Shown here piece by piece: positions 3,440-22,236 of a stretch of DNA of 22,236 bases (positions are counted from its first letter, which is position 1; each line of letters starts with the position of its first letter). The DNA is from a virus: IMG/VR virus record IMGVR_UViG_3300021122_000005, positions 1 through 22,236 of that record; one strand, written 5' to 3'. Position numbers and translations under genes: made by a program. The notes under the pieces are model-generated. The model had not been told where the DNA came from, made no database searches, and saw only the letters and a program-made list of their open reading frames with translations.

Positions 3440-4846
3440 ATGACCACCGCCTCATACAACCTCTCCCAGCTTGGCAGCCAGTACAACCAAGGCGGCACCG
3501 GCGCAGTCGCACGCACCACGGCGAGCAAGTTGCAGGAAAGCGTCAGCGTTCTTGATTTTGGCGCCGATCCGACGGGTAGCGCGGACTCAACGACGGCGTT
3601 CACCAATGCGTCCAACGCCGGCACGACTGTCATCATCCCGGCGGGCACGTACAAACTGACCAATTTCCGACCGCAAAAGTCGGGTCAGGCGTTCATCGGT
3701 GCTGGGTACGGCACGACCATCATCCAACAGGGATCAACCAGCTCGCCGGCAATCAATTGCCTGTCAGACGTCACCACGGGTCAGTTGATCGGCGTCAAGT
3801 TCTCGGGCTTCAAGATTGTCGGTGCGGCCAGCGCCACGGTTGCAGGTTTCGTTGTCCAGGCAACAAACCCCTACGTCGTCTCGTTGAGCGAATTTGATTT
3901 CCACGCGTCCGGTTGCTACACGTCGTTGCAAATTGTAACGACGGCGGCAAATGAGGTTTACGGAAACCGGTTTACGTTGTCGTCGTATAGCTCAACCAGC
4001 ACCGGGTTTAGCAGTAACGGCGGCGTATACAACACGTTTTCGCTGTTCGTCAGCTCTGCAGCCAACGGCATTTGCATATCCGACGCCTCGTGGAATTCGG
4101 TGTTTGTTAAAGCGGTCACAAACGGCCAGCAAGTTTATTCAGGTCAAAACTGCACAATTCTTGATCCGACGGTTGAAGGTTGGTCCGGAAGTTCTCAGTA
4201 CGCCGCAATCAATTTCAGCGGCTACAACCATCGAGCTGTCGGCGTCACGCTGACCAACGTACCTAATGCCAACCTGTCTGGCAGCTTTGGCGTCTATTGC
4301 AACGCAACCAACATCTCAATTCTAGGTTATCGCGTCATCGGAATTCAGCCGGCCACGGCGCCGACGTACCCGATCTCGTTGCAGGCTAGTGGGACCGGAA
4401 CTCTTGCCGACTGCTACACCGCCGGCTGCGCGTACAAGATTGAATCCTACACGGCGTTTTCAATCCTGTCGGGATACCAATTCGTTGGCGATTGCACGTC
4501 AATGACCAACCTGTCGCAACGCCCTCTCAAGTTCGGCCCGTCGTTTGCCGCCGTGTCTGGCACGACGTACACCGTCGACGCATCGTTCGGTTCGACTGGA
4601 CTCGATCCCGGTGTCGTCGTCGCCGCATCCGGCAGTTGCACCCTGACGCTGCCCAGCGGGTCGATCTACACGGGACGCACGCTCACGGTGCTGACGCGAA
4701 ACGCTCAGACGGTCGTGTCGGCGTCATCGAACGTCGTGGCGTTGACCGGCGGCGCTGCGGGAACGGCGATTCTTGCGGCCACCGCTGGCAAATGGGCCAC
4801 GCTGCAATATGACGGCACGAACTGGAACATCATTGCGAGCAACTAA
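3440..4846 (+). CDS. Second tailspike, beta-helix, with minimal N-terminus
   Basis: This 468-residue protein starts at ATG 3440 with AAGGA seven bases upstream. Only 16 residues precede the same QGGTG ... KLQESVSVLDFGA entry motif (residues 17-41) found in the first tailspike, followed by DPTGSADSTTAF and a long Ser/Thr/Asn/Gly-rich stretch typical of a right-handed beta-helix. It has no obvious tail-docking domain of its own, so it may attach through the first spike, as second receptor-binding proteins do in branched systems of some Klebsiella podoviruses. The final part (VVAASGSCTLTLPSG ... KWATLQYDGTNWNI) resembles the small beta domain that closes many phage spikes. A depolymerase role is likely from the fold, but the catalytic residues cannot be assigned. 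Confidence 0.85.
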   Translation: MTTASYNLSQLGSQYNQGGTGAVARTTASKLQESVSVLDFGADPTGSADSTTAFTNASNAGTTVIIPAGTYKLTNFRPQKSGQAFIGAGYGTTIIQQGSTSSPAINCLSDVTTGQLIGVKFSGFKIVGAASATVAGFVVQATNPYVVSLSEFDFHASGCYTSLQIVTTAANEVYGNRFTLSSYSSTSTGFSSNGGVYNTFSLFVSSAANGICISDASWNSVFVKAVTNGQQVYSGQNCTILDPTVEGWSGSSQYAAINFSGYNHRAVGVTLTNVPNANLSGSFGVYCNATNISILGYRVIGIQPATAPTYPISLQASGTGTLADCYTAGCAYKIESYTAFSILSGYQFVGDCTSMTNLSQRPLKFGPSFAAVSGTTYTVDASFGSTGLDPGVVVAASGSCTLTLPSGSIYTGRTLTVLTRNAQTVVSASSNVVALTGGAAGTAILAATAGKWATLQYDGTNWNIIASN

Positions 4847-7622: not shown

Positions 7623-8635
7623 GTGAGGACATGACCGACGACCAGCGTCGGGCGCAACGGGAGGCCGAGGCCAAGGCGGCCAACAAGGCCCGCAACGACG
7701 AGCGCCTCGAGCGGCTTAACGCAATTGCCAACCAGGCGGACGAGAAGAAGTCGGCGGACGGCATGGAGGATCTAGAGGACGAGGCGTGGACCGAACACGT
7801 CGACCGTCGCCGGCCAGCCGAGCCGAACCGCCCGGAGAGTGACGAGGACGATGACGGCACGATTGTGGCCAAGGCCGAGCAGGCCGACCGGGATTTGGAC
7901 GAGGCACGGGCTGCCGGCGCCGACGACGTCCGTGTCACCAACGGCGAGACGTACTACCGCCTGATCGTGAACGGTCAGGAACGCTGGATGACCCTTCAGC
8001 AGCTTCGTGAAAATGCCAGTAAGGTTTCGGCGGCGGACGAATACTTGCGTTCCGCCAAAGAACTCGTAAAATCGAACCTAACCGCCAGTCCATCCTCACA
8101 GGACGACATGGCGAACTCGGCGCGAGGCCGGGTGCGTGAACTGCTCAACCGCGCAATCATGGGTGAGCAAGAGGCGATTGACGAGTTGGCACAGGCGATT
8201 GAGCGACCATCCGCTAACGTGGACGTCGCAAAGCTTGTGGACGAGCGAGTTGATGGTCGGTTGACGTTTCGTGAAGCTGTCAATTGGTTCGACAAGGAGT
8301 ACCAGGCAGAACTCTCTGATCCGCGCATGAAGGAATACATGGTCTGGAAGGACGCGCAGCTCGCGCAGGCCAACCCCACCATGGATTTCAAAGAGCGTCT
8401 ACGCCAAGTTGGCGAGGAAGCTCGAGCGCTGAGAGGTCGACCTGCTGCCCCCGCTGCTGATCCGCAGCGTCGAGCCGATAAAGAGCAACGCAAAGCGTCA
8501 GTTCGGGCGATTCCGGTGGCCGGCGGACGGCAAGCGGATGAGGCCGACGAGGACGATGACGAGACCTACGAGATGTCCATTGCAAGAATGGCAAAACTCA
8601 GGGGTCAGGCGCGTCCGACTGTACATCGACGTTAA
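7619..8635 (+). CDS. Probable scaffolding protein
   Basis: This 338-residue protein is highly charged and helical, lies between portal and major capsid genes, and ends with a basic tail (ARPTVHRR), all features of phage scaffolds. The first 100 residues are rich in Glu, Asp, Lys and Arg. Around residues 100-145 a small motif (VTNGETYYRLIVNGQERWMTLQQLRENA) resembles a segment seen in scaffold-like phage proteins. A basic C-terminus in P22 scaffold binds the coat protein; here that role is inferred. AAGGAGG at 7608-7614, four bases before the ATG, is the strongest ribosome site seen in the window, fitting a protein made in large amounts. There is no visible protease motif. An alternative is a scaffold-portal assembly chaperone. 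Confidence 0.75.
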   Translation: MSEDMTDDQRRAQREAEAKAANKARNDERLERLNAIANQADEKKSADGMEDLEDEAWTEHVDRRRPAEPNRPESDEDDDGTIVAKAEQADRDLDEARAAGADDVRVTNGETYYRLIVNGQERWMTLQQLRENASKVSAADEYLRSAKELVKSNLTASPSSQDDMANSARGRVRELLNRAIMGEQEAIDELAQAIERPSANVDVAKLVDERVDGRLTFREAVNWFDKEYQAELSDPRMKEYMVWKDAQLAQANPTMDFKERLRQVGEEARALRGRPAAPAADPQRRADKEQRKASVRAIPVAGGRQADEADEDDDETYEMSIARMAKLRGQARPTVHRR

Positions 8636-8637
8636 AC

Positions 8638-8678
8638 CCTCGCCATGGTGGCGAGGCCAACATTAGGAGTCTCGCCAC
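8638..8678 (+). promoter_or_regulatory. Two competing hairpins in the capsid gene leader
   Basis: Three arms are visible: CTCGCCA at 8639-8645, TGGCGAG at 8649-8655 and CTCGCCA again at 8671-8677. Arm 2 can pair with arm 1 (8-bp stem 8638-8645/8649-8656, three-base loop) or with arm 3 (10-bp stem 8648-8657/8669-8678, one G-U pair). The second stem places most of the AGGAG ribosome site (8665-8669) in an 11-base loop and pairs up to the base before the ATG. The two forms exclude each other. There is no T-run, so it is not a terminator. A translational switch or mRNA stabiliser is inferred. Confidence 0.55.
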
Positions 8679-9650
8679 ATGGCAGGTCAGGTTTGGGCTG
8701 TTAACAGCCTCGGCGGCTACCTCTACAGCCGTCAGCTTTCCAACGTACTGCGCGCCAACGTGCAGCCACTCGTCAAGTTCCGTCAGTTCGCTGACGTTCA
8801 CGACATTTCACAGCAGGGCAAGAAGAAGGGTGACACCTTCACGTGGGACGTGTTCTCGGACGTCGCGGCGGCTGGTGCCGTCCTCGTCGAAACGAACACG
8901 ATGCCGGAAACCAACTTCACGATCATTCAGGGCACTCTGACGGTCACCGAAGCCGGTAACTCGGTCCCGTACTCGGGCAAGCTCGACAACCTGTCGAAGT
9001 TCCCGGTTGAGGACGTCATCAAGAAGGTCCTCAAGAACGACTGCGTCAAGTATCTGGACCGCGCTGCGTGGACCCAGTTTAACCAGACGTTGCTCCGCGC
9101 CATCCCGACGGGCGGCACGTCGACCTCGGCGGTCACGCTCTACACCAACGGCACCGTTACGGGCACCAACTCGGTCGCGTTCAACAACGCGCACGCGAAG
9201 GCGATCGTGGACGCCATGAAGGAGCGCAACATCCCGGCGTACATCGCGGACGACTACTACGCGATCGCGTGGCCGACGACGCTCCGCACGCTCAAGAACA
9301 ACCTCGAAACGATCCACCAGTACTCGGACACGGGCTTCAACCTCATCATGAACGGTGAGATCGGCCGCTACGAGAACACCCGCTACATCGAGCAGACCAA
9401 TATCGCGAAGGGTACGGGTACGGACGGCGTCACGACGACCTCGTGGACCAACGGCCAGTCCGACTGGATCTTCTTCTTCGGTAACGACACGGTGGCCGAA
9501 GCCATCGCGGTTCCCGAGGAAATGCGCGGCAAGATTCCGACCGACTACGGTCGCAGCAAGGGCATCGCCTGGTACTACCTCGGCGGTTTCGGCATCGTTC
9601 ACACGGCGGCGATCAACACCCGCATTGTGAAATGGGACTCGCAGGCTTAA
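8679..9650 (+). CDS. Major capsid protein, N4-gp56-like (HK97 fold)
   Basis: This 323-residue protein resembles the N4-gp56 family of major capsid proteins. Visible features are an N-terminal helix (SRQLSNVLRANVQPLVKFRQFADV), a KKKGDTFTWDVFSDV segment matching the E-loop region of this family, an EAGNSVPYSGKLDNLSKFPVEDVIKKVLKND backbone-helix region, and a C-terminal beta segment (GGFGIVHTAAINTRIVKWD). Several hundred copies build the icosahedral shell. It follows the scaffold gene by 43 bases, the longest non-coding gap so far, holding the competing hairpins and an AGGAG site. Codon use is strongly GC-ending, as expected for a highly expressed gene in this genome. The head-protein call is firm; the exact family is a little less so. 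Confidence 0.87.
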   Translation: MAGQVWAVNSLGGYLYSRQLSNVLRANVQPLVKFRQFADVHDISQQGKKKGDTFTWDVFSDVAAAGAVLVETNTMPETNFTIIQGTLTVTEAGNSVPYSGKLDNLSKFPVEDVIKKVLKNDCVKYLDRAAWTQFNQTLLRAIPTGGTSTSAVTLYTNGTVTGTNSVAFNNAHAKAIVDAMKERNIPAYIADDYYAIAWPTTLRTLKNNLETIHQYSDTGFNLIMNGEIGRYENTRYIEQTNIAKGTGTDGVTTTSWTNGQSDWIFFFGNDTVAEAIAVPEEMRGKIPTDYGRSKGIAWYYLGGFGIVHTAAINTRIVKWDSQA

Positions 9651-10219: not shown

Positions 10220-10702
10220 ATGCCGAAGATCACTCAGCCGGGACGCAAGCAGTACGAGACGCCGCAGGTCACCCCGGACCAGCTCGCAACCGAAATGTAC
10301 GGCGGCATGGCGCCGTCGCACATGGACATCATCAAGTCGGCCAACGCTCGCGCCCAGAAGCGGCACGAGATGAAGGGCCAGCACGTCGCGGACATTGAGG
10401 TGCTGCCGGACAGCGCCGAGATGATCCACAACGAGATGGTCGGCGTCCGCAATTCGGGATACCTCGTCAAGAAGGGCCTCGAGTTCGGCGTCAACGCGTT
10501 CTACAATTCCCTGCCCCCGGGTATGGACATTGAAGATCAGGAAGTTTCCGACATCCGCAAGATGGATCTTTACGCCTACGAGGGCGGTCTGGGCTACCCG
10601 GGTGACGGGTGGGTTTACCGCGCTTCTGGTTCGATGATGCCGAAGAAGATGGACATGGGCCGTCCGGAAGAAACGAACTACCTCGGGTCGAAAAAGATCT
10701 AA
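10220..10702 (+). CDS. Phage protein with MPKI start and PPGMDIEDQE motif, copy 1
   Basis: This 160-residue protein is of unknown function and starts after a GGAG site. It is charged, Met-rich and helical in the first half (EMYGGMAPSHMDIIKSANARAQKRHEMKGQ). Residues 96-115 hold NSLPPGMDIEDQE followed by DIRKM, which recurs almost unchanged in the next gene. Both proteins also begin with MPKI and end with a short NYL segment, so they are diverged duplicates. The motif could be a binding peptide for a shared partner such as capsid or scaffold; this is inference. No membrane segment is seen. Confidence 0.72.
   Translation: MPKITQPGRKQYETPQVTPDQLATEMYGGMAPSHMDIIKSANARAQKRHEMKGQHVADIEVLPDSAEMIHNEMVGVRNSGYLVKKGLEFGVNAFYNSLPPGMDIEDQEVSDIRKMDLYAYEGGLGYPGDGWVYRASGSMMPKKMDMGRPEETNYLGSKKI
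10505..10564 (+). repeat. Coding repeat, copy 1 (PPGMDIEDQE motif)
   Basis: These 60 bases encode residues 96-115 of the first duplicate gene. They match 10898-10957 at 18 of 20 encoded residues, while third codon positions have drifted, so the protein motif rather than the DNA is conserved. Confidence 0.8.
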
Positions 10703-10717: not shown

Positions 10718-11164
10718 ATGCCGAAGATCGTGCAAGAGAAGTTCCAGGTTAACTACCCGGACAGACAGTCAAGCGCAGAGAATCAGCATGGCTGGCTCAC
10801 CGACCTTGAGGCGCGAGCCAAAAAGATGATGCCGGGGCGCGAAGGCGTTCCCGGTGGCGACGGTGAGTCGCGGTTCATGAACAACGCGGCGTTTTTCAAC
10901 TCGCTGCCGCCCGGGATGGACATTGAGGATCAGGAGATCGTCGACATCCGCAAGATGGGCGTCAACGTGTCGGGTAACATGCCCGCTGAGTACGCCGAAG
11001 GCGATTTGACCAACAACGAGCTTAACAAAGTGTCGTTGCGCGACGGTTTCCACAAGAAAAAGTTGCTTCAGACGGACGATGAGTACACCCGCGAACACAA
11101 CGACGCGTTCTACGACGACGTCGGTGGGTTTGTTGAGCGCAACAACTATTTGGATCGGATGTAA
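10718..11164 (+). CDS. Phage protein with MPKI start and PPGMDIEDQE motif, copy 2
   Basis: This 148-residue protein is a diverged paralog of the gene just upstream: both start MPKI, carry the NSLPPGMDIEDQE...DIRKM motif (here residues 61-80) and end with NYL. The flanks differ. This copy is Asp/Glu/Lys-rich, with a hydrophilic C-terminus (KKKLLQTDDEYTREHNDAFYDDVGG). A GGAG site lies upstream of its ATG. It sits among head genes, so a minor head or head-completion role is plausible but unproven. Confidence 0.72.
   Translation: MPKIVQEKFQVNYPDRQSSAENQHGWLTDLEARAKKMMPGREGVPGGDGESRFMNNAAFFNSLPPGMDIEDQEIVDIRKMGVNVSGNMPAEYAEGDLTNNELNKVSLRDGFHKKKLLQTDDEYTREHNDAFYDDVGGFVERNNYLDRM
10898..10957 (+). 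repeat. Coding repeat, copy 2 (PPGMDIEDQE motif)
   Basis: This segment encodes residues 61-80 of the second duplicate gene. The only differences from copy 1 are two adjacent residues after DIEDQE (VS in copy 1, IV here). Confidence 0.8.
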
Positions 11165-11851: not shown

Positions 11852-13501
11852 ATGGTGTGGAAAGCAGACAATCCGCAGGGTAACGAGTCAGGCAAGATCC
11901 GTTGGGAGTTGGTCAAGTGGACGCGTGGCCGTGGCCTCGATGTAGGCTGCGGCGGCAACAAAGCGTTCCCGCACATGATCGGCGTCGACAACGGCACCGA
12001 CATTCAACTTTTTGGCCACCAGTTCAAGCCCGACGTCTGGATCGACGATGCGGCGGACCTTCGCATGTTCGCGTCGGACAGCATGGATTTCGTGTTTTCG
12101 AGCCACGTTCTCGAACATATCCCGTTTGACAAGGTCGTCAAGTGCCTCAAGGAATGGCTGCGCGTTATCAAAAACGACGGCTACCTCGTGCTGTACCTGC
12201 CCGACGAGACGCTGTATCCCAAGGTGGGAGAACCCGGGGCCAACCCGGACCACAAGTGGAACGTCTCGTACAAGCTGCTGGTCGACTTGATGGAAAAGGC
12301 CGGCCATTGGGATCTGGTCGACTGGCAGCGCCGGGACCAGAACGACGAGTACAGCCTCTTTTTCGTGTTTCAGAAAACGAGAAAGGGCCACGCGTTTTCG
12401 TGCATCAAGCCCAAGTTGCAAGTCAAGCGGGCCGCCGTGGTCCGTTACGGCGCGTTTGGCGACATTGTCCAGGCATCCTCGATCTTCAAGGGCCTCAAGG
12501 AGCAGGGCTACCACGTCACGGTGTACTGCTCGCCCCCGGGGTCCGACGTGATCCTGCACGACCCCAACATTGACGAGTTCTACTATCAGGACAAGGATCA
12601 GGTGCCCAACCACGCGCTCGGCGCATTCTGGGATTACCAGAAAGCCAAATACGACAAGTGGGTCAATCTGTCCGAGTCGGCTGAAGGGACGCTTTTGGCG
12701 CTCCCGGGGCGGTTCCTGCACGGCGTGCCGCCGAAACTCCGGCACAAGCTCGCCAACGCCAACTACCTTGAGCTGCAGCACGACGCGGCGGGTGTGCCCC
12801 ACAAGCCGCAGGTCAAGTTCTATCCGACGGCTGACGAGGTCGCATGGGCGCAGCGCACCCGCGAGGCTATGGGCAAGTTTGTCATCGTTTGGTCACTGGC
12901 GGGCTCGTCGGTACACAAAACGTGGCCGTTTGTGGACAACATCATCGCGGCTTTGCTGATGGAATTTCAGGACCTGCACATCGTGCTGGTCGGTGGCCCC
13001 GCCGGGGTGCTGCTCGAGCAGGGTTGGTTCAAGGTGGACGACAACGGCCAGCCGGTGCGCACGGATGCCGGAAAAAAGATCCCGTCGGACCCCCGCGTGC
13101 ACCCGATGTCGGGCGACTGGTCGATCCGCCAGACCATGGCGTTCAGTCAGGTCGCGGACCTCGTCATCGGCCCCGAGACGGGCGTTCTCAACGCTGTATC
13201 GCATGACGATATGCCCAAGGTCGTTTTTCTGTCTCACTCGAGCCACGAAAACCTGACTCGGGATTGGGCAAACACCCACGTTCTGATGGCCGAGAACACG
13301 CACTGCCCCGGTCGCGGTGCAAACGAGGCGCCGGCCTGTCACCAGCTGCACTACGGCTGGGACCATTGCAAGAACGCGGTCGGCGAAGACGGCAAACCGT
13401 CTGGGATCGCCCAGTGTCAGATGGACATCACCCCGGAACACGCTCACCGGGTCATCTGGCACGTCATCACTCAGGCGCTTGAGCGGCGCAAGGCGGCATA
13501 A
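11852..13501 (+). CDS. Methyltransferase-glycosyltransferase family 9 fusion
   Basis: This 549-residue protein has two enzyme halves. Residues 27-120 are a class I SAM-dependent methyltransferase: GLDVGCGG (28-35) is the SAM-binding loop, IGVDNG (43-48) gives the acidic ribose-binding site, DSMDFVFSSHVLEHI (76-90) is a typical motif of small-molecule methyltransferases, and LRVIKNDGYLVLYLP follows. Residues 193-545 resemble glycosyltransferase family 9 (ADP-heptose:LPS heptosyltransferase): VVRYGAFGDIVQAS (196-209), LAGSSVHKTWPF (349-360), LVGGPAG (379-385) and QTMAFSQVADLVIGPETGVLNA (427-448). A Cys-rich segment (485-522, four Cys) follows. Family members transfer sugars to LPS; here virion, glycan or host-LPS targets are all possible. 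It sits just after the terminator and abuts the neck gene (TAAATG). It is not a standard morphogenesis gene. Confidence 0.82.
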   Translation: MVWKADNPQGNESGKIRWELVKWTRGRGLDVGCGGNKAFPHMIGVDNGTDIQLFGHQFKPDVWIDDAADLRMFASDSMDFVFSSHVLEHIPFDKVVKCLKEWLRVIKNDGYLVLYLPDETLYPKVGEPGANPDHKWNVSYKLLVDLMEKAGHWDLVDWQRRDQNDEYSLFFVFQKTRKGHAFSCIKPKLQVKRAAVVRYGAFGDIVQASSIFKGLKEQGYHVTVYCSPPGSDVILHDPNIDEFYYQDKDQVPNHALGAFWDYQKAKYDKWVNLSESAEGTLLALPGRFLHGVPPKLRHKLANANYLELQHDAAGVPHKPQVKFYPTADEVAWAQRTREAMGKFVIVWSLAGSSVHKTWPFVDNIIAALLMEFQDLHIVLVGGPAGVLLEQGWFKVDDNGQPVRTDAGKKIPSDPRVHPMSGDWSIRQTMAFSQVADLVIGPETGVLNAVSHDDMPKVVFLSHSSHENLTRDWANTHVLMAENTHCPGRGANEAPACHQLHYGWDHCKNAVGEDGKPSGIAQCQMDITPEHAHRVIWHVITQALERRKAA

Positions 13502-14518
13502 ATGGCAACCTCTGGCACATACGTCTTTACCGTCACGCGTGACGACATCATCCGCGAAGCCATGCTCAACATTGGCAAGCTGGACGTATACGGCCAGATC
13601 GACCCGTCGGAAACCGCCGATTGTGCCCGCAAGCTCAACATGATGGTGAAAACGTGGATGGGTCGCCTCGACTACGCTCCGGGCCTCAAAATGTGGACGC
13701 GGCAGCGAGGCGACCTGTTCCTTTCATCAAGCCAGTACCGGTACAACCTTGGCCCCACGGGTGACAACTGGGCCGGCGGCTGCACGGCACTGCCAGGGCA
13801 GAACTACGGCAGCGACCAGCTGTCGACGGGTGCCGCCGCGGCTGCCACGACCCTGTTCACCGGCGTTGGTTCCACGGGAAACTTCACGGCGGGCGACTAC
13901 TGCGTGGTCCAACTTGACAGCGGCGACATCTTTTCGACCACCATCACGGCGGTCAACGCCGGTGCGGGCTCCATCACCATCGCGGCGGGCTTGCCGTCGT
14001 CGGCTTCTGCCGGCAACTACGTTTACAACTACACGACCAAGGCGCAGCGCCCGCTCGAGATCGTCACGGCCATCTTGCGCGACAACACGCAGAACGACAC
14101 GCCGCTCGATTACATGACCTTGCAGACCTACGAGGCGCTGCCGACCAAGACCAACAGCTCGTACTTGTCCGACCCGACGGAGATCTACTACGAAGCGCAG
14201 ATCGGCAACAACGGCCCGTCTGGCGCCAACGGCCAGCTGTACATTGATTGCGGCGGCGCCCAAGACGTCACAAAGCAGATCCACATCGTGTACCTGCGCC
14301 CGGTGCAGGACTTCAACAACCCGCTCGACAACCCGGAATACCCGCAGGAATGGTACGCGGCACTCTGCTGGGGTCTGTCCAAGCAGATCGCGCCCATGTT
14401 CAACGCGCCATGGGTTCCTGTCATGGAGCAGAATTATCAGGAAGCCGTGATGTACGCCCGTCACAGCAACACCGAGACGTCCGACGTGTACTTCCAGTGT
14501 AACGCGGGCAACCCGTAA
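13502..14518 (+). CDS. Neck/tail accessory protein, P22 gp4-like, with inserted beta domain
   Basis: This 338-residue protein matches the P22 gp4-type head-completion/tail accessory family that binds under the portal and seals DNA in the head. The start (TVTRDDIIREAMLNIGKLD ... SETADCARKLNMMVKTWMG) and the tail (NPEYPQEWYAALCWGLSKQIAPMF) fit. P22 gp4 is about 166 residues; the extra length comes from an insert at residues 100-180 (STGAAAAATTLFTGVGS, GDYCVVQLDSGDIFSTTIT) that looks like an immunoglobulin- or beta-type domain, a common form in relatives. It follows the fusion enzyme immediately and overlaps the gp10-like start (TAATG). The next gene supports the pairing. Confidence 0.8.
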   Translation: MATSGTYVFTVTRDDIIREAMLNIGKLDVYGQIDPSETADCARKLNMMVKTWMGRLDYAPGLKMWTRQRGDLFLSSSQYRYNLGPTGDNWAGGCTALPGQNYGSDQLSTGAAAAATTLFTGVGSTGNFTAGDYCVVQLDSGDIFSTTITAVNAGAGSITIAAGLPSSASAGNYVYNYTTKAQRPLEIVTAILRDNTQNDTPLDYMTLQTYEALPTKTNSSYLSDPTEIYYEAQIGNNGPSGANGQLYIDCGGAQDVTKQIHIVYLRPVQDFNNPLDNPEYPQEWYAALCWGLSKQIAPMFNAPWVPVMEQNYQEAVMYARHSNTETSDVYFQCNAGNP

Positions 14519-15939
14519 TGAAGATCCAGCCGCTTTTCGGAGCAGGAATTCAGGGACGCAGTTTGCCGGTCACGGCACAGCGTCGCTTGAATTGCTACTT
14601 TGAGCAGCGGCCAGACGGCGACAAGTCATCCATCGTCGTCTACGGCACCCCCGGCCTTGTCTACCAGACGACCATGATGTCGGTGGTGCGCCGGATGCTC
14701 GGGACGCAATCGACGCTGTACGTCGTGGCCGGCAACGCGCTGTATTCGCTGACGCCGACGTTCACGCAGACTCAACTCGGGTTTCTGCAGACGTCGACCG
14801 GCACTGTGTCGATGGCAAACAACCCGTCCCAGATCATGATCGTCGACGGGACGGCGGGGTATATCTACACGCCGAACAGCGCCACTTTCGCGCCAATTAC
14901 GTCGCCCGGGTTTCCCAACGGCGCCAATACGGTGACGTTCGTGTCCGGGTATTTTGTTTGCGAACAGCCTGGCAGCCAGCAGTTCTGGGTGTCGAACCTC
15001 TACGACGGCACGACGTGGAACGCCTTAGCATTCGCATCGGCCAGCCAATACAGCGACAACATCAAAGCCGTGGACAGCCTGATCGGCAACCTCGTGCTGT
15101 TCAGCGAACGGCACACGGAGTTCTGGCAGAACGTTGGCTCAACCCCGGAACCGTTCGCGCCGATCATTTCGGCCACGTCCGAGTTTGGCCTTGCGGCCAT
15201 CTACTCGAGGGCTCACGTCAACCAGACGATCTGTTTCCTCGGCATGAACCCGCAAGGCGCCCCGCAGGTCGCGCAAATCAGCGGATACAACGTGTCCGTT
15301 ATATCGACGCCGGATTTAGATTTCATACTGTCGCAGATGTCGACCGTGTCGGACGCCATTGCGATCAGCTACGTGGTCAACGGCCACCCGATGTACCAGC
15401 TGACGTTGCCAACCGCTGACCGCTCGTTCCTATACGACACGGCGACCGGTCTTTGGTCAGAAACGCAAAGTGGATTGACGAATAAATATTCGACCCGACA
15501 TTTTGCTCAATACTCTGCGTATTTTAACTCAACGACCTACGTGTCTCAGGCCAACACCGGCACTATTTTAAAGTTCGACACGAACGCGTACACCGACAAC
15601 GGAACGACAATCTTGCGCGAGCTGATTACCCGCCACGGGTCGGCCAATTTCAACCGTTTTTCGGTTGATGAGCTGTACATTGACATGGATACCGGCGTTG
15701 GAGCCAACACGGGCCAAGGGTCGACGCCGACGTTGTTGCTTGAGTGCAGCAAAGACAACGGGCGCACGTATTCGACGCCCCGCCAGCTGCAGGTCGGGCC
15801 GTTGGGCAATTACCAACAGCGAGTCATCGCCCGTCGATTTGGATCCGCTCGAGATTTCGTATTCAGACTACGATTTAGCGATCCAGTTCAATTCACGATC
15901 ACCGACGGCGCCGTGACGATCCGTGAGGGCGAGCAATGA
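14518..15939 (+). CDS. Tail/packaged-DNA stabilisation protein, P22 gp10-like
   Basis: This 473-residue protein matches P22 gp10 in size (about 470) and in place after a gp4-like gene. The start ([34 protein letters not shown] ... [10 protein letters not shown]) is characteristic of this family, as is the [25 protein letters not shown] segment and later [25 protein letters not shown]. The fold is probably a beta-propeller-like hub onto which tailspikes or fibers attach. It stabilises packaged DNA by closing the neck. The ATG overlaps the previous TAA, and its TGA overlaps the next ATG. Confidence 0.83.
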
Positions 15940-17273
15940 GCCAGCTGCCGCCGGTGCCAGGGCAACTCATCACGCAAAAGGACCTTCTGACGCCGCAATG
16001 GCAATCGTGGTTCTATTACCTGCAAAACCTCATTAACGCCGGTTCGTTGGGTCCTACGGGCGCCACAGGCCCGACTGGCTCTGCAGGTCCGACCGGTGCC
16101 ACGGGGCCGACCGGTGCTACCGTAGGCGTCACTGGACCAACCGGTTCCACCGGCCCTACGGGCGTCACTGGGGCGACGGGATCGACGGGCGCTACCGGTC
16201 CGAAAGGCGACACGGGACCCGCCGGATCGACCGGTCCCACGGGGCCAACGGGCGCTACAGGCGCCACGGGACCGACAACGCCGACCAACGTGGTGTCTTT
16301 TACCAGCAGCGGCACATATACGCCCTCAACCGGCGCAATCGCCGCACAGGTATTTGTGTGTGGTGGCGGTGGTGGCGGTGGTGGCGCGGCAGCCATAACC
16401 AACCTCGGAACGCCATATTATTCTGCCGGCGCAGGAGGTGGTGGCGGAGCTTATTTGATTGGCTGGTTTCCAATTTCAACAATTACCACGCCAGTCACGA
16501 TTACAGTTGGTTCGGGTGGAACAGGTGGCGCTGGCGGAGTTTACACATCTGGCGCGTATGCCCCCGGAAGCGACGGCACAGCAGGCGCAAATTCCAGTTT
16601 TGGAAGTTACTTGGTCGCCGGTGGTGGAGGTGGTGGTAGCGGTGGCGGATGTCAAGCAACCACATTCGCAGGTAGCGGTAGCGGCGCCGGTGGAGCGCCG
16701 GGAGCTGCTGGCGGTTCCGGAGCAGTGGCCACCTTTACATACGGAATAAGCGCAACCGAAGGTTATGATTCAAGCGGAAATCGAATTGCAAACACTGTCA
16801 ATGGAAATTTCGGCAACCAATCGACGTTTATTTTTTCTCCGAACGTAATTGCTTATTGCGGGTCTCCAGGCGGTGGAACAATTGCTGCAAACGCTTTTTC
16901 AACAGTAAAAGGCACCGCTGGCGTCAATAATTACGCGTATGCCCCCGCAGGTGGTGGCGCCGGAGCAATCGGCGCAGCTGGAATCGGAAGTGGCGGTCGA
17001 GGCGGGGCTGTCCAAGGAACTACCGGAACAGGCGGTAATCCGGGGAACGGCGGAAATGGCGGTAACGCTACAAACCCCGGATTGCCAACACCGGGCGGCG
17101 GTGGCGGCGGCGGCAGCGAAGGTCGTTTCGTTGGTTCCGGAGTTTACAACGGAGGCAACGGCGTCAACGGCGGCGGCGGCGGCGGTGGCGCAGTAAACCA
17201 AGATGCCAACGTAAACGGCGGAACTGGCGGCAACGGCGGCAATGGTTTTGTTTACGTTGTGGAGTATTTTTAA
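15936..17273 (+). CDS. Collagen-like, glycine-rich tail fiber/adhesin
   Basis: This 445-residue protein begins with a short anchor ([32 protein letters not shown], residues 4-35), a type common at fiber N-termini. Residues 39-114 are collagen-like Gly-X-Y repeats ([10 protein letters not shown]...), broken once near residues 61-65, forming a predicted triple-helical rod. From about 119, [10 protein letters not shown] then runs of glycine and GGNGG/GGAG motifs form a glycine-rich tip similar to phage adhesins with polyglycine-II layers. The product is predicted to be a trimeric fiber for host contact, placed where P22 has its tail needle. Bases 16741-16860 are about 41% GC against about 67% in a sampled neck-gene line, so the tip may have been acquired. 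Confidence 0.82.
16050..16277 (+). repeat. Collagen-like Gly-X-Y coding repeats
   Basis: About 25 triplets of Gly-X-Y, mainly GPT, GAT and GST, are encoded here by 9-base-periodic DNA. The repetition could let copy number vary by slippage. An irregular step (ATVGVTG) breaks the phase once. Confidence 0.85.
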
Positions 17274-17276
17274 CCC

Positions 17277-18113
17277 ATGAACGCCCTCGTCCACGCCGAA
17301 CGTCTGGACAAGCTTGAGGAGGTCATGACTGACCTACCTCAAACGTCCTGCAACGTCCGGCACATTTTTGCCCCGGGACAATACATCCGCGAAGTCACAA
17401 TTCCGGCGGACACCTACGTCGTCAGCCACAAGCACCGTGTGCCGCACCTCAACATTTTTGTTAAAGGCGCCGGCACCATGGTCATGTGCGACGGCTTTCA
17501 CCAAGAGCTGAAAGCGCCCATGGTGTTCGTGGGTCAGCCAGGGCGAAAAGTCGGTTACGTCCGCGAAGAGGTCGTTTGGCTTAACGTGTTTGCGACCGAC
17601 GAGACCGACGTTGACACGCTCGAGCAGATGTTCTTTGACAAGACCGAGGAGTTTGCGGAGGCGCAGGCGACCCACCGCGAGCAGCGCAACGTCAAGCTGA
17701 TCGGCCACGAGCGAGACGATTACGCCGCATTCCGTGACGAAGTCGGCGTGGATGAAACGAAATGTCGGCAGATCTCAGAAAATACCGACGATTTGATCCC
17801 GCTGCCGCATGGCACCTACAAGGTAAAGATCGGCCCGTCGCTGATCGAGGGCCGCGGTGTCATCGCCACGGCTGACATTGCAGCTGGCGAATTCATCGGT
17901 CCCGCCCGGATTGACGGCAAGCGCACCCCGCTCGGGCGCTACGCCAACCATTCCCAATTCCCGAATGCAAAATTTGTCACAGCCGGCAATCGCGTCATTT
18001 TGATAGGATTACGCCCGATAGCGGGCTGTCGCGGAGGCTTTGACGGCGAGGAGGTCACGGTGAACTACCGGGACGCCCTTGCTTTGAACCTGACCATCGG
18101 AGCGCAGTCATGA
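17277..18113 (+). CDS. Cupin-SET domain fusion protein
   Basis: This 278-residue protein joins two domains. Residues 31-105 look like a cupin: IPADTYVVSHKHRVPHLNIFVKG carries His51, His53 and His57 as possible metal ligands, followed by GTMVMCDG and a second strand set. Residues 181-270 resemble a SET lysine methyltransferase: EGRGVIATADIAAGEFIG (191-208), RYANHSQFPNA (221-231, the NHS...PN signature that folds around SAM) and GEEVTVNY (257-264, with Tyr264 as likely catalytic Tyr). Only about 30 residues lie between the GRG and NHS motifs, so the SET is very compact. Helices at 110-170 join them. The start has GGAG 12 bases upstream. Its TGA overlaps the ejection gene ATG. A virion or host protein-lysine target is inferred. 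Confidence 0.75.
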   Translation: MNALVHAERLDKLEEVMTDLPQTSCNVRHIFAPGQYIREVTIPADTYVVSHKHRVPHLNIFVKGAGTMVMCDGFHQELKAPMVFVGQPGRKVGYVREEVVWLNVFATDETDVDTLEQMFFDKTEEFAEAQATHREQRNVKLIGHERDDYAAFRDEVGVDETKCRQISENTDDLIPLPHGTYKVKIGPSLIEGRGVIATADIAAGEFIGPARIDGKRTPLGRYANHSQFPNAKFVTAGNRVILIGLRPIAGCRGGFDGEEVTVNYRDALALNLTIGAQS

Positions 18114-18820
18114 GTGGAATTGCAGGAGCTATCGCAGGAGCCGCCGTGGTCGGTGCTGCCGGTAGCATCATCGCCGGCAATCAGGCCGCATCGGCCACCC
18201 GGGACGCGTCCAACGCCGCCATCCAGCAACAGCAGGCGGCTCTGGCCCAGCAGAAAGAACTGGCCGCGCCGTACACCGGCCTCGGCCAGCAGGCCATGGG
18301 CGCCTACGAAAACCTGCTCGGCATTGGCAAGGATGGCAAGGTCAACCCGCAGCTCGCCCAGCAGACCCTGCAGAACATGCCGGGTTATCAGTTTGCGCAG
18401 CAGCAGGGCCAGCAGCAGACGCTGGCCGCTGCCGGCGCCATGGGCATGGGCCTGTCCGGCAACACGCTTGCGGCTTTGTCCCGGTACAACCAAGGATTGG
18501 CCGACCAGACGTACCAGCAGGAGCTGCAGAACCTGCTCGCGCCGGTCCAGATCGGTCAGGCAGCGGCAGCGGGTCAGGCAGCCAACATCGGTCAAGGCGC
18601 GGCCAACATGGGCAACATTATGATGGGTCAGGGCCAGAACGCGGCCAACATTGCGATCGGCCAGATGGGCGGCATCACGGGCTCGATCGGCAACGCGCTG
18701 AACCAGTACACCACCATGAACACGCTCAAGGCGCTCCAGAACCCGTCAGCCGGGTTTGTGCCGCCGACGTATGACGCCAGCCTGACGTCCAACATCCAGA
18801 ACCTCCCGGGGCTCGGTTAA
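18110..18820 (+). CDS. DNA ejection protein, P22 gp7-like
   Basis: This 236-residue protein fits the small ejection/DNA-transfer proteins of P22-like phages (gp7 class). The first 25 residues form a Gly/Ala-rich membrane-active segment (GAIAGAAVVGAAGSIIAG), then NQAASATRDASNAAIQQQQAALAQQ, a helical region, and APYTGLGQQAMGAYENLLG, a pattern common in this family. The rest is Gln/Ala/Gly-rich (QQQGQQQTLAAAGAMGMGLSG). Such proteins are packed in the head and leave with the DNA to form a channel across the envelope. The gene is followed two bases later by another virion gene. Confidence 0.8.
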   Translation: MSGIAGAIAGAAVVGAAGSIIAGNQAASATRDASNAAIQQQQAALAQQKELAAPYTGLGQQAMGAYENLLGIGKDGKVNPQLAQQTLQNMPGYQFAQQQGQQQTLAAAGAMGMGLSGNTLAALSRYNQGLADQTYQQELQNLLAPVQIGQAAAAGQAANIGQGAANMGNIMMGQGQNAANIAIGQMGGITGSIGNALNQYTTMNTLKALQNPSAGFVPPTYDASLTSNIQNLPGLG

Positions 18821-18822
18821 TC

Positions 18823-20337
18823 ATGCCTATTTCACCGGAAAGCATCAGCTCAATCGGCACGTCGGGTCCGGACATTGTCGGGTCAATTGGTCGCGGTTAC
18901 ACGCTGGCCGACACGATCAACCGCGAGCAGCTCAACAAAATGACGCTGCAGTCGCAGCAGGAAGAACAGACCGATCTTGCCAAACTGAGAACGCTTGGCC
19001 AGAAATACGACCTGTCAAAGCCTGAGGACCGTCATGCGTTCGCGGCTGAAGCCACCAAGATATCGCCCAAGCTCGGCATGGACGTGCTGAAAACGACGCA
19101 GGAAGCCGATCGTCGCAGTTCTGAATTGAGCGCCGATCAAATGCGCGTTTACGAGGCCAAGCACGAGGCGATGACCAGCGCTTTAATTCCCATGTACCAG
19201 CAAATCGATACGCTGACCAAGCAGGGCGTTCCGCCGCAAATGATTGAAGCGCAGCTGTTGCCGGTATTCAAACAGACGCTGGACACGTTGCAGAAACAAA
19301 CCCTTCCCAACGGCGAAAAACTGCTCAACCAGCAAGACATCCAGCAAATTTCGACCATGCTGTCGGGTCAGCCCGGTGCGCTGTTGCAAGGCATTAACGC
19401 GGCCATGGCGTCGTCGCGGACGGCGGCTCAATTTTTTGAGCGCCAGCGCAAGGCAAACCTTGAGGAGCGCAAAGTAAACGTCCAAGAGGAAAGCGCAAAG
19501 ACAAGAGCCGAGCAAGGCGCCGAGCGTTTGGATATTGCTCGAGGCCGCGCCAAAACCGGCGATACACAACTGACGCCGGAACAAACGGACCTCGCAGCGG
19601 CCCTCACCGAAGCCGGCGTCCAGCTGCCGCCGTATTTCCGTGGCAAGCAGCTGTCGGCCAATCTTGAAGGTCTGTTGCGACGTCACCCAGGCATGAGCCC
19701 CGACCAGATCGCGGCCAACGTCAAGGAAGGAAAAATTGAGATGGCTGCCGAAACGGCTGGCCGTCGCGCTGTCGGATCGCAGGTCGGCAAAGTTGAAGTC
19801 GGTCTCAACGAAGTCAACGAGTTCGCGCCGCTCGCGCTGGCCGCGTCTCAGGCCGTGCCGCGTGGCACGTTCGTGCCGTTCAACCGGCTCAGTCAGGTTG
19901 CCGATACCAGCATTTCCGATCCGAACCTTAAAAAGCTCAAGGCGTATCTCACGTCGCTGTCCAACGCCTACGACGTGGTTGCCGCTCGAGGCGGTACGGA
20001 CGTTGCCAAGCGTCAGGAAGCGCACCGGATGCTGGATTCTGCCGACAGCCCCGAAACGCTGGCCGAGGCGATCCGCGTCATGCAGACCGAAGCGCAGGCC
20101 GCCATTCGTGCCGGCGAAAAGGCGCTTCGTCGCCCCGCTGGCGTCACGCCGCAGGGCCCCACAACTCCACCCCCGTCGGCGGTTTCCCCAACCGGGAACC
20201 CTCCCCCCGGCCCTCCCGCCGCTGGCGGGGGTGGACCTACACCACCGGCCAACCTTCTCAAAGAAGGCGCCGTCACCCATTTCAAGAATGGCCAGAACTG
20301 GACGTTGCGTAACGGCCAGCCGGTGCAGGTGCAGTAA
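18823..20337 (+). CDS. Probable ejection/internal virion protein (second)
   Basis: This 504-residue protein is mostly helical with long polar helices (REQLNKMTLQSQQEEQTDLAKLRTLGQKY; QRKANLEERKVNVQEESAKTRAEQG), suggesting coiled coils. The middle part (LNEVNEFAPLALAASQAVPRGTFVPFNRLSQV ... AYDVVAARGGTDVAK) resembles a domain in internal virion proteins of P22-like phages. A Pro/Gly-rich linker at about 443-475 joins a 30-residue end with FKNGQNWTLRNGQPVQV, a small module seen at the ends of phage proteins. Its location between two ejection-type genes supports a role in DNA delivery (gp20-like). Its stop overlaps the next ATG by one base. Confidence 0.7.
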   Translation: MPISPESISSIGTSGPDIVGSIGRGYTLADTINREQLNKMTLQSQQEEQTDLAKLRTLGQKYDLSKPEDRHAFAAEATKISPKLGMDVLKTTQEADRRSSELSADQMRVYEAKHEAMTSALIPMYQQIDTLTKQGVPPQMIEAQLLPVFKQTLDTLQKQTLPNGEKLLNQQDIQQISTMLSGQPGALLQGINAAMASSRTAAQFFERQRKANLEERKVNVQEESAKTRAEQGAERLDIARGRAKTGDTQLTPEQTDLAAALTEAGVQLPPYFRGKQLSANLEGLLRRHPGMSPDQIAANVKEGKIEMAAETAGRRAVGSQVGKVEVGLNEVNEFAPLALAASQAVPRGTFVPFNRLSQVADTSISDPNLKKLKAYLTSLSNAYDVVAARGGTDVAKRQEAHRMLDSADSPETLAEAIRVMQTEAQAAIRAGEKALRRPAGVTPQGPTTPPPSAVSPTGNPPPGPPAAGGGGPTPPANLLKEGAVTHFKNGQNWTLRNGQPVQVQ

Positions 20338-22236
20338 TGGCTGATGAATGGCAAGTCGTAGGCGAGACACCCGCTGGCGCCGATAGCCAATGGCAAGTCG
20401 TCGGTCAGACGCCCGCTGCCCCGGCACCCACGCTCATGCAGGACCTCAAAAAGGGCGCCGTAAAGGGCGCCGTAGAGACGTTTTACGGGCCTCTGGAGGC
20501 CGCTGGCCGTATGGCCTATGGCGCCATGGCAACGCCCGTGGCGGGCCTTGCAGGGCTTGCACAGGGCGCATACAACGTCGGACGCGAGGCGTTGGGCTAT
20601 CAACCCGGTATGCCCGCCGGCAACGTGGTCGAAAACATCATGACGGCGCCGGGGCAACCACAGACCGACGTTGCCCGAAACGTCGAACGAGGCATTGGCT
20701 ACGTTACGCAGCCTTTAGTGGAAGCTGCTCGTGCGCCTGGGCGAATGATTTCCGAAGCCGGCGCTCCCGTAACCGGCGCCATTGTGTCGGCTCTGCCCGA
20801 AACTGCCATGACATTGTTGGCGCCCGAAGCCCGTGGTGCGGTCGGTAGTGCAGCTCGAGGCGTGACTCGGGCAGCACCTGCCGCAGCCACAACCGCGGCC
20901 ACCGCTGGTGCTGCCACCGCGGCAGCCGAGAACGCTGCCCGTCAGTACATCGCGGCCAAAACGTCCGTCGCGTGGAACGATTTGCCAAATTCTGTCCAGC
21001 AGACGCTGACCGAGGTCGCCAAAAACGCCAAGAACCTTGACAAGCTAGACCCCAAAGCGATTGAGCGGCTGGCGACGTTGCGCCGTGCCGGCGTCCAAAA
21101 CGCCACGGTTGGCCAGCTAACCCGAGACCCGCTCCAGCAGACCCGCGAAATGATCGCCCAGCAATCCGAGGGCGGGCAGGTTCTGCGCGATCTGACGACC
21201 GAACAGAACAAACAGCTGGTCAGCAGCATTGAGAGTTTGCGTGGTCGAACGACCCCGCTGCCCCCGGGCAGCACAACGGCGGGTCGCGGTGTCCGCGAGG
21301 CGGTAACGTCGAAATTGCGCGGTATGCAACGCAGCGTCACCCGCCTATACGGTATTGCCGAACGAAACGCGGGTGACACACCGGTACAGGCGACGTCGCT
21401 GGGCGACTACGTCAACAACCATGCCGATCCTGAACTGGTGGGCTACGTCACCCGCAAATTGCCAAAAGACGCGTACACGGTCGAAAACGGCCAAGTTACG
21501 CTGACCCGCGACCTTACCCTTAAAGAGCTGGAGATCGTCCGCAAAGCGGCTACCGCGGCCAAAAAGGCTGGTGGCGACAAGGGTTACTACGCCGGCGAAG
21601 TCACGGATCTGATTGACGACATCACCAAGGACTCGGGCGGCGAATGGTATGCCAAGGCTCGAGCTGCCCGCCGTAAGGTCGGCGAAGAATTTGAACGCAC
21701 TAAAGCGGTTAACGACATTATCCGCACCCGTGGCCGTTCCCGTGAACAAGCGGTCGCGCTTGAAGACGTCTGGCGCCAGTCGGTCGTGCGGGGGTCCGTC
21801 GACGACTTGCTGGCTTTGAAAAAATCGCTGCTTGGCGGCTCACCGATTGTTGCAAAGAAAGGCGCTGCGGCCTTTGATGACCTGCGAGCTGCCACCGCTG
21901 ATTACCTGCTGGAAAAGGCAACGCGAAGCCCGAAGAACTCGGTCGGCGATCCCAACGTGCAATGGAACGCATTCCGTAATGCTGTCAACGAGATCGGGCC
22001 CGAAAAGCTAGAAGTGCTGTTCGGCAAAGCCGGGGCCAAGAAAGTTGCCGACATCGTCGAGTCGCTGGAGATTCTCAAGACCGAAGCGCCGAACAATTGG
22101 CGCGGTTCCAGCACGTTCAAGAACATGATTTCCATGTTGGACACGCTGGGCGGATTGGGCGGCAAATATCTCGGGACAGATGTTATCGCCGGTGCCGTGA
22201 AGGGTGTAGCCAAATTGAAAGAAGCCGGTGAAGCGG
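20337..22236 (+). CDS. Large ejection/internal virion protein, 3' end outside window
   Basis: The frame is open from ATG 20337 to the window end, 633 codons with no stop, so the protein is longer. It begins with two copies of a short WQVVG repeat (EWQVVGETPAG, QWQVVGQTPAA), then Gly/Ala-rich amphipathic stretches (residues 40-100 and 140-200, including APAAATTAATAGAATAAAE) that could insert into membranes, then a long helical, charged region. It lacks a visible lytic transglycosylase motif in the part seen; that domain, if any, would lie downstream. Size and order fit the P22 gp16/gp20 class of head-packed proteins that pass into the host with DNA. The call rests on position and composition. 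Confidence 0.68.
   Translation, partial: MADEWQVVGETPAGADSQWQVVGQTPAAPAPTLMQDLKKGAVKGAVETFYGPLEAAGRMAYGAMATPVAGLAGLAQGAYNVGREALGYQPGMPAGNVVENIMTAPGQPQTDVARNVERGIGYVTQPLVEAARAPGRMISEAGAPVTGAIVSALPETAMTLLAPEARGAVGSAARGVTRAAPAAATTAATAGAATAAAENAARQYIAAKTSVAWNDLPNSVQQTLTEVAKNAKNLDKLDPKAIERLATLRRAGVQNATVGQLTRDPLQQTREMIAQQSEGGQVLRDLTTEQNKQLVSSIESLRGRTTPLPPGSTTAGRGVREAVTSKLRGMQRSVTRLYGIAERNAGDTPVQATSLGDYVNNHADPELVGYVTRKLPKDAYTVENGQVTLTRDLTLKELEIVRKAATAAKKAGGDKGYYAGEVTDLIDDITKDSGGEWYAKARAARRKVGEEFERTKAVNDIIRTRGRSREQAVALEDVWRQSVVRGSVDDLLALKKSLLGGSPIVAKKGAAAFDDLRAATADYLLEKATRSPKNSVGDPNVQWNAFRNAVNEIGPEKLEVLFGKAGAKKVADIVESLEILKTEAPNNWRGSSTFKNMISMLDTLGGLGGKYLGTDVIAGAVKGVAKLKEAGEA

Follow-up and report, generated by a model that had tools for sequence, protein, structure and literature searches.

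A phage cupin-SET fusion protein encoded beside DNA-ejection genes, a putative lysine methyltransferase with a minimal SET core

Gene and domain layout

The window (the whole stretch of DNA that was analysed) is a virus record of 22,236 bases and represents an incomplete genome. Within its structural operon lies a gene for a protein, hereafter cupin-SET, in which a cupin-fold domain is joined through a helical linker to a SET domain. The whole protein was assigned to the uncharacterised family phrog_34170 (PHROGs, E 2e-75, residues 10-271). The gene, its parts and its neighbours are as follows.

14518-15939, plus strand: P22 gp10-like head-closure (Hc3) gene (phrog_578, E 8e-100)
15936-17273, plus strand: collagen-like/glycine-rich tail fibre gene, directly upstream (tail fibre PHROGs; Gly_rich_2 below cut-off)
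17277-18113, plus strand: cupin-SET gene, member of phrog_34170, 278 aa, ATG start
17340-17597, plus strand: cupin-fold (RmlC-like) domain, residues about 22-107 (AlphaFold strands 26-106; Foldseek and VIA matches to cupins; phrog_12032 and phrog_24280 match)
17427-17447, plus strand: HKHRVPH segment, residues 51-57, preceded by S at position 50; not a conserved metal-cupin signature
17598-17801, plus strand: helical linker, residues 108-175 (model helices 112-119, 124-137, 139-156 and 160-167)
17802-18074, plus strand: SET domain, residues about 176-266 (Pfam, AlphaFold, Foldseek, VIA, family profile)
17850-17858, plus strand: GRG, residues 192-194, SAM-binding GxG motif (both Gly invariant in 75 homologues)
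Inside the SET domain, plus strand: 8-residue SET-I region, residues 209-216 (the gap between the halves aligned to MLL1)
17946-17966, plus strand: NHSQFPN, residues 224-230, SAM-binding/pseudoknot motif (N224 and H225 invariant)
18045-18068, plus strand: GEEVTVNY, residues 257-264, with presumed catalytic Tyr264 (E259 and Y264 invariant)
18110-18820, plus strand: P22 gp7-like DNA-ejection gene, directly downstream (phrog_598, E 3.4e-27)
18823-20337, plus strand: second gene after cupin-SET, at the P22 gp20 position (by position only; no PHROG match)
20337-22236, plus strand: third gene after cupin-SET, at the P22 gp16 position (by position only; no Pfam match; runs off the record)

An earlier note on this DNA had described a His-rich segment at residues 51-57, followed by GRG, RYANHSxxPN and GEEVTVNY, in one 278-residue protein. 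All four motifs were recovered, with HKHRVPH, GRG and GEEVTVNY at the residues listed above and RYANHSQFPN at residues 221-230. It had also described the gene as lying between the fibre and ejection genes and overlapping the latter; the tail fibre PHROGs, the phrog_598 match and a 4-nt overlap of the ejection gene with the cupin-SET stop (ATGA) agree with this. A hidden Markov model built from relatives of the downstream ejection gene recovered P22 gp7 (E 1.2e-19).

The SET domain

Most work on SET domains concerns histone enzymes of eukaryotes and effectors of bacteria. The SET domain of cupin-SET scored above the curated cut-off of Pfam PF00856 (E 2.3e-6, 28.4 bits versus 22.4); the Pfam search, which the earlier note had proposed for both domains, thus found SET and missed the cupin, for which no Pfam match was returned. 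An NCBIfam search of the protein gave nothing useful. An AlphaFold model (mean pLDDT 93.9, pTM 0.90, from a 36-sequence alignment) was searched by using Foldseek, the structural check named in the same note; the C-terminal half was matched to the SET enzymes MLL1, EZH2, SETD8 and vSET, and the N-terminal half to cupins. SET matches were found over residues 181-270, the segment on which that reading had been made to depend. VIA-align gave Z values that are modest on their own, against SAH/SAM-bound MLL1 (Z 7.1, rmsd 2.0, 79 aligned, 29% identity) and chlorovirus vSET (Z 6.3, 30% identity), and also matched EZH2 and SETD8, the latter at up to 36% identity. The case for a SET domain stands because fold, profile and motif register agree, not because of Z values alone.

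The family profile matched MLL1 in the PDB (E 6e-8) with both SET halves aligned (180-208 and 217-270) and with GRG, NHS and DY in register. SET entries were reached only by this family profile; a single-protein phmmer search against the PDB gave no match. As judged from the alignments, the GxG, NHS and Tyr of the putative pocket coincide with those of cofactor-bound SET structures. The SET domain first proposed from the letters is upheld by the Pfam cut-off, the AlphaFold and Foldseek matches and the core SAM-binding and catalytic motifs.

In the same profile alignment SET-I comprises 8 residues versus 42 in MLL1, which bears out the minimal SET core suspected earlier; SET-I has the same length in 75/75 homologues, and the post-SET cysteine cluster is absent from the cupin-SET sequence. 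In other SET enzymes SET-I lines the substrate groove, and in the eukaryotic ones SET-I and post-SET elements together form much of the substrate channel.

The cupin domain

The N-terminal domain has the jelly-roll (double-stranded beta-helix) fold of the cupin superfamily, and its AlphaFold model matched many cupins, including ectoine synthase and TM1459 (Foldseek E down to 1.9e-5; VIA Z 5.8). The N-terminal half was also matched by phrog_12032, 'short tail fiber protein' (E 5.7e-28, residues 7-137), and likewise by phrog_24280, 'tail fiber adhesin', the two matches together spanning residues 7-139. From the sequence the earlier note had called residues 51-57 a His-rich cupin-type segment; the cupin fold was supported by the AlphaFold model, and the His-rich character did not hold as a conserved feature. 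Among homologues H51 is present in 96% and H57 in 85%, with H53 in only 37% (Q in 61%), so that neither the HxH pair nor the classical metal cupin site is conserved. The two signatures of metal-dependent cupin enzymes, G(x)5HxH(x)3-4E and G(x)5PxG(x)2H, were not found, since neither a Glu nor a second-motif His is conserved. The N-terminal domain is therefore a cupin fold and, by signature, not a metal-cupin enzyme.

Cupin-only proteins of phrog_12032 and phrog_24280 (Vibrio phages, VPMS1, Sphaerotilus vB_SnaP-R1 and Variovorax VAC_51) are homologous to the cupin half of cupin-SET and share its slot before the ejection genes. They differ in having no SET domain and in carrying GKxHxxxH where fused proteins carry GHx(Q/H)xxxH.

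Relatives, conservation and fusion history

Relatives of cupin-SET are encoded by at least 544 IMG/VR stretches. A tblastn search of 50,697 phage records gave full-length relatives at 28-50% identity in six distinct phages (Phage zth2-2, Rhodoferax phage P26218, Pseudoalteromonas phage PH1 and three Manatee Spring assemblies, two of which look like the same phage), and dozens of further phage records matched in the cupin half only. A GTDB scan returned nine loci, including Paraburkholderia contigs L090 and L098, which are probably prophages. Members of phrog_34170, for example Rhodoferax phage P26218 gp30 and the protein of Pseudoalteromonas phage PH1, are full-length homologues with the same architecture and position and show no essential difference from cupin-SET. 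The homologue in P26218, a phage in cultivation, has the accession AKA60333.1. Some members are already called SET proteins by automatic annotation, such as MW202744 ('pbcV-1 histone H3-lys 27 methyltransferase structure') and A0A6J5PTS6 ('SET domain containing protein'); our literature search found no publication on phage cupin-SET proteins.

Across 75 distinct full-protein homologues, including that of PH1 at 28% identity, G192, G194, T217, R221, N224, H225, E259 and Y264 are 100% invariant, and the spacing from G192 to N224 is exactly 33 residues in every one (75/75). Both domains are under purifying selection, with a median Ka/Ks over 46 pairs of 0.074 for SET and 0.052 for the cupin. The invariant motifs, the fixed spacing and the low Ka/Ks indicate a working active-site pattern and not a relic.

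The SET domain is fused to a cupin in 124 of the 126 distinct SET sequences in the fetched loci. On the Paraburkholderia ferrariae contig L098 the cupin and SET are two genes with a 4-base overlap, and the Comamonadaceae contig L096 has a SET gene (7860-8710) with no cupin nearby; because SET is a separate gene in the one and stands without a nearby cupin in the other, covalent joining to the cupin is not required, and the cupin could not be obligatory in the role of missing substrate-binding part that the earlier note had suggested for it. The SET gene of L096 lies between primase/AAA-like genes and putative ejection genes, the latter assigned from position and composition since PHROGs gave no match, and is followed by a 95-residue open reading frame of unknown family. 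Fusion in one lineage and adjacency in another point to a functional link between cupin and SET. When a tree was built for the cupin domain, the SET-fused sequences grouped together with support (99/95), apart from PH1, which sits on a long branch. The grouping would fit a single main fusion, with the placement of PH1 and the bootstrap being unsure.

The slot before the ejection genes

A gp7-like ejection gene follows 107 of the 119 distinct fused genes with enough downstream sequence, usually starting between -15 and +4 nt from the cupin-SET stop codon. The gene order is gp10, gp26, gp14, gp7, gp20, gp16 in P22 and gp11, gp12, gp13, gp14, gp15, gp16 in T7. Cupin-only genes are found at the gp14 position in P22-like phages (loci L008, L181, L182, L183 and L185) and at the gp13 position in T7-like phages (L178 and L184). 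The split cupin and SET genes of L098 occupy this slot as well. Since these cupin-only relatives share the slot, the linkage to the ejection gene belongs to the cupin too, and since they stand at the P22 gp14 or T7 gp13 position, the label 'short tail fibre' is doubtful; the comparison suggests that this label, which is spread over many phage records, is wrong. Among individual records, the 'short tail fiber protein/adhesin' annotations of L008, L178, L181, L184 and others look doubtful. An exception in position is Alteromonas phage vB_AmeP_R8W (L180), where the cupin gene (7866-8336) lies between RNA polymerase and head-tail connector genes and not before ejection genes.

P22 gp14 (PF11039) and T7 gp13 (PF11090), which occupy this slot in their phages, resemble cupin-SET in standing before the ejection proteins. 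P22 gp14 (L176, 3912-4364) is filed as PF11039 DUF2824 and is annotated only for head morphogenesis. Homology of P22 gp14 to either domain, cupin or SET, was rejected, no sequence relation being detectable. When folded with IMG/VR relatives it gave a predicted GNAT fold (AlphaFold pLDDT 84.9) that was matched to GNAT enzymes by Foldseek (E 4e-9) and VIA (Z 16.3, rmsd 2.3, 144 aligned). P22 gp14 is thus like cupin-SET in having the predicted fold of a group-transfer enzyme and unlike it in that the donor would be acetyl-CoA and not SAM, both activities being predictions; the literature search found no publication on acetyltransferase activity of P22 gp14. In the T7-like phage vB_PaeM-G11, ORF39, which lies after the tail-tube genes and before the gp14-16-like genes, is reported to encode an acetyltransferase (PMC10142737).

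The predicted GNAT fold of P22 gp14, taken with cupin-SET, puts group-transfer folds of at least two unrelated kinds (GNAT and SET) at this slot. We tentatively raise the idea, which we consider somewhat doubtful, that short-tailed phages repeatedly put unrelated protein-modifying transferases before their ejection genes, with SET here and a GNAT fold in P22 gp14 and some T7-like phages. If this is true, the making of infectious podovirus particles would include, as a general and unrecognised step, the covalent modification (amine methylation or acetylation) of a protein in the ejection pathway. The comparison also offers a testable role for P22 gp14 (DUF2824).

Candidate substrates

The ejection protein encoded next door had been put forward as a natural substrate. 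This was not supported: when the gp7-like ejection proteins from 117 genes that follow a cupin-SET gene were aligned, Lys made up at most 38% of any column, a negative of moderate weight because the alignment is loose (1428 columns). The lack of a conserved lysine in these neighbours weakens the ejection protein as a candidate. Neither gp10-like (93) nor gp16-like (32) proteins had a lysine column at or above 80%, and the gp20-like homologues, only 3, were too few for a lysine-column count. One lysine column was found in the gp4-like protein (K216, 97% of 29 sequences), which we take to be part of a general adaptor motif. Variable sites, a different phage protein, cupin-SET itself or a host protein are possible substrates.

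Discussion

Cupin-SET resembles the solved PF00856 SET lysine methyltransferases (MLL/KMT2, EZH2, SETD8/KMT5A and chlorovirus vSET, PDB 3kma) in its fold and in having GxG, NHxxPN and GEExxxxY in register. It differs from them in its 8-residue SET-I (42 in MLL1) and lack of post-SET cysteines, in its fusion to a cupin and in its place in a phage structural operon, and methylation by it is predicted. As a putative SET methyltransferase, cupin-SET combines a minimal core with a partner and a biological setting that are both new. A family of phage proteins, hundreds strong, whose SET core is both intact and unusually small and whose genes keep to the DNA-ejection genes would constitute a minimal model of SET catalysis.

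The computed evidence comprises the SET fold, the invariant motifs, purifying selection, the conserved position and the modular fusion and splitting of the two domains. The explanation that we favour, and to which we give about an even chance, is that cupin-SET is a SAM-dependent protein-lysine methyltransferase composed of a minimal SET and a docking cupin and acting in assembly of the ejection apparatus. Late in infection the protein would be produced alongside the ejection proteins through translational coupling; the cupin-fold domain would dock SET on a component of the ejection or tail-assembly pathway, and while virions are being assembled SET would methylate one or more lysines of an ejection-apparatus protein or of a protein associated with that apparatus. 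Cupin-SET would act in the slot filled by gp14 in P22 and gp13 in T7. Catalysis, lysine as the target, the timing, the role in assembly and docking by the cupin are parts of this picture that we infer. Action during assembly is favoured by the coupling of the gene to late ejection genes and by the expectation that SAM is absent outside cells, and the placement of the fusion gene before the injection-protein genes suggests that proteins of the injection machine, or their partners, are chemically marked during assembly. Methylation would not be required at the slot in general, since most cupin genes in isolated phages have no SET. Against this explanation speak the lack of a conserved lysine in the gp7-like neighbour, the VIA Z values of only 6-7 and the near absence of SET-I and post-SET elements.

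That same reduction (SET-I cut to 8 residues, no post-SET cysteines) and the modest structural Z would suit a SET fold that does not catalyse and that serves a virion protein as a binding or structural domain, such as a beta-clip interaction module. We regard this as improbable, because GxG, NH and Tyr are 100% invariant down to 28% identity and a purely structural use would not need that. An active lysine methyltransferase aimed at a host protein, whether produced inside the infected cell or delivered along with the DNA, that alters translation, envelope or defence proteins is unlikely in our view, although it shares the intact SET core and would fit both the lack of a conserved lysine in the gp7-, gp10- and gp16-like virion neighbours and the rise in host protein methylation during infection of Cellulophaga baltica by phages without a known methyltransferase (PMC13288928). 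Weighing against a host target, the gene is late, belongs to the tail/ejection operon, almost always has ejection genes next to it and shows no host-protein signature, and other phages keep the fused cupin at the same place without SET.

The matches to phrog_12032 and phrog_24280, together with several GenBank records that label the cupin half accordingly, would make the protein a short tail fibre or adhesin in which SET is an accessory receptor-binding domain. This reading has little to recommend it: the gene occupies the T7 gp13 or P22 gp14 morphogenesis position and is not with fibre genes, a separate fibre gene lies upstream in the window, an adhesin would not show the good conservation of the cupin half, no SAM is expected outside cells, and the literature searched held no report of a virion location. 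Least credible is automethylation by SET of its own cupin-linker part, for instance at K122. This position is Lys in 71 of 75 fused proteins and is missing in 10 of the 11 aligned cupin-only or split proteins, as automethylation would have it; yet K122 may have a structural role at the linker junction, and L096 has a SET with no cupin nearby.

A 2026 report described protein methylation, including that of lysine, in Cellulophaga phages that encode no known methyltransferase (PMC13288928). Cupin-SET could be one way in which lysines of phage proteins become methylated.

Other observations in the window

Further genes on the plus strand of the window drew our attention. In the structural operon, a 549-residue protein (11852-13501) carries a class I methyltransferase domain at its N terminus (Methyltransf_11, E 9e-10), and its long C-terminal part looks like a family 9-type glycosyltransferase. 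The adjacent open reading frames at 10220-10702 and 10718-11164 have the segment NSLPPGMDIEDQE(V/I).DIRKM in common, as if a small gene of the structural operon had been duplicated in tandem. Adjacent genes at 1043-3430 and 3440-4846 encode tailspike-type proteins that resemble pectate lyases (PF12708; E 5.6e-14 for the first and 2.7e-5, below the cut-off, for the second).
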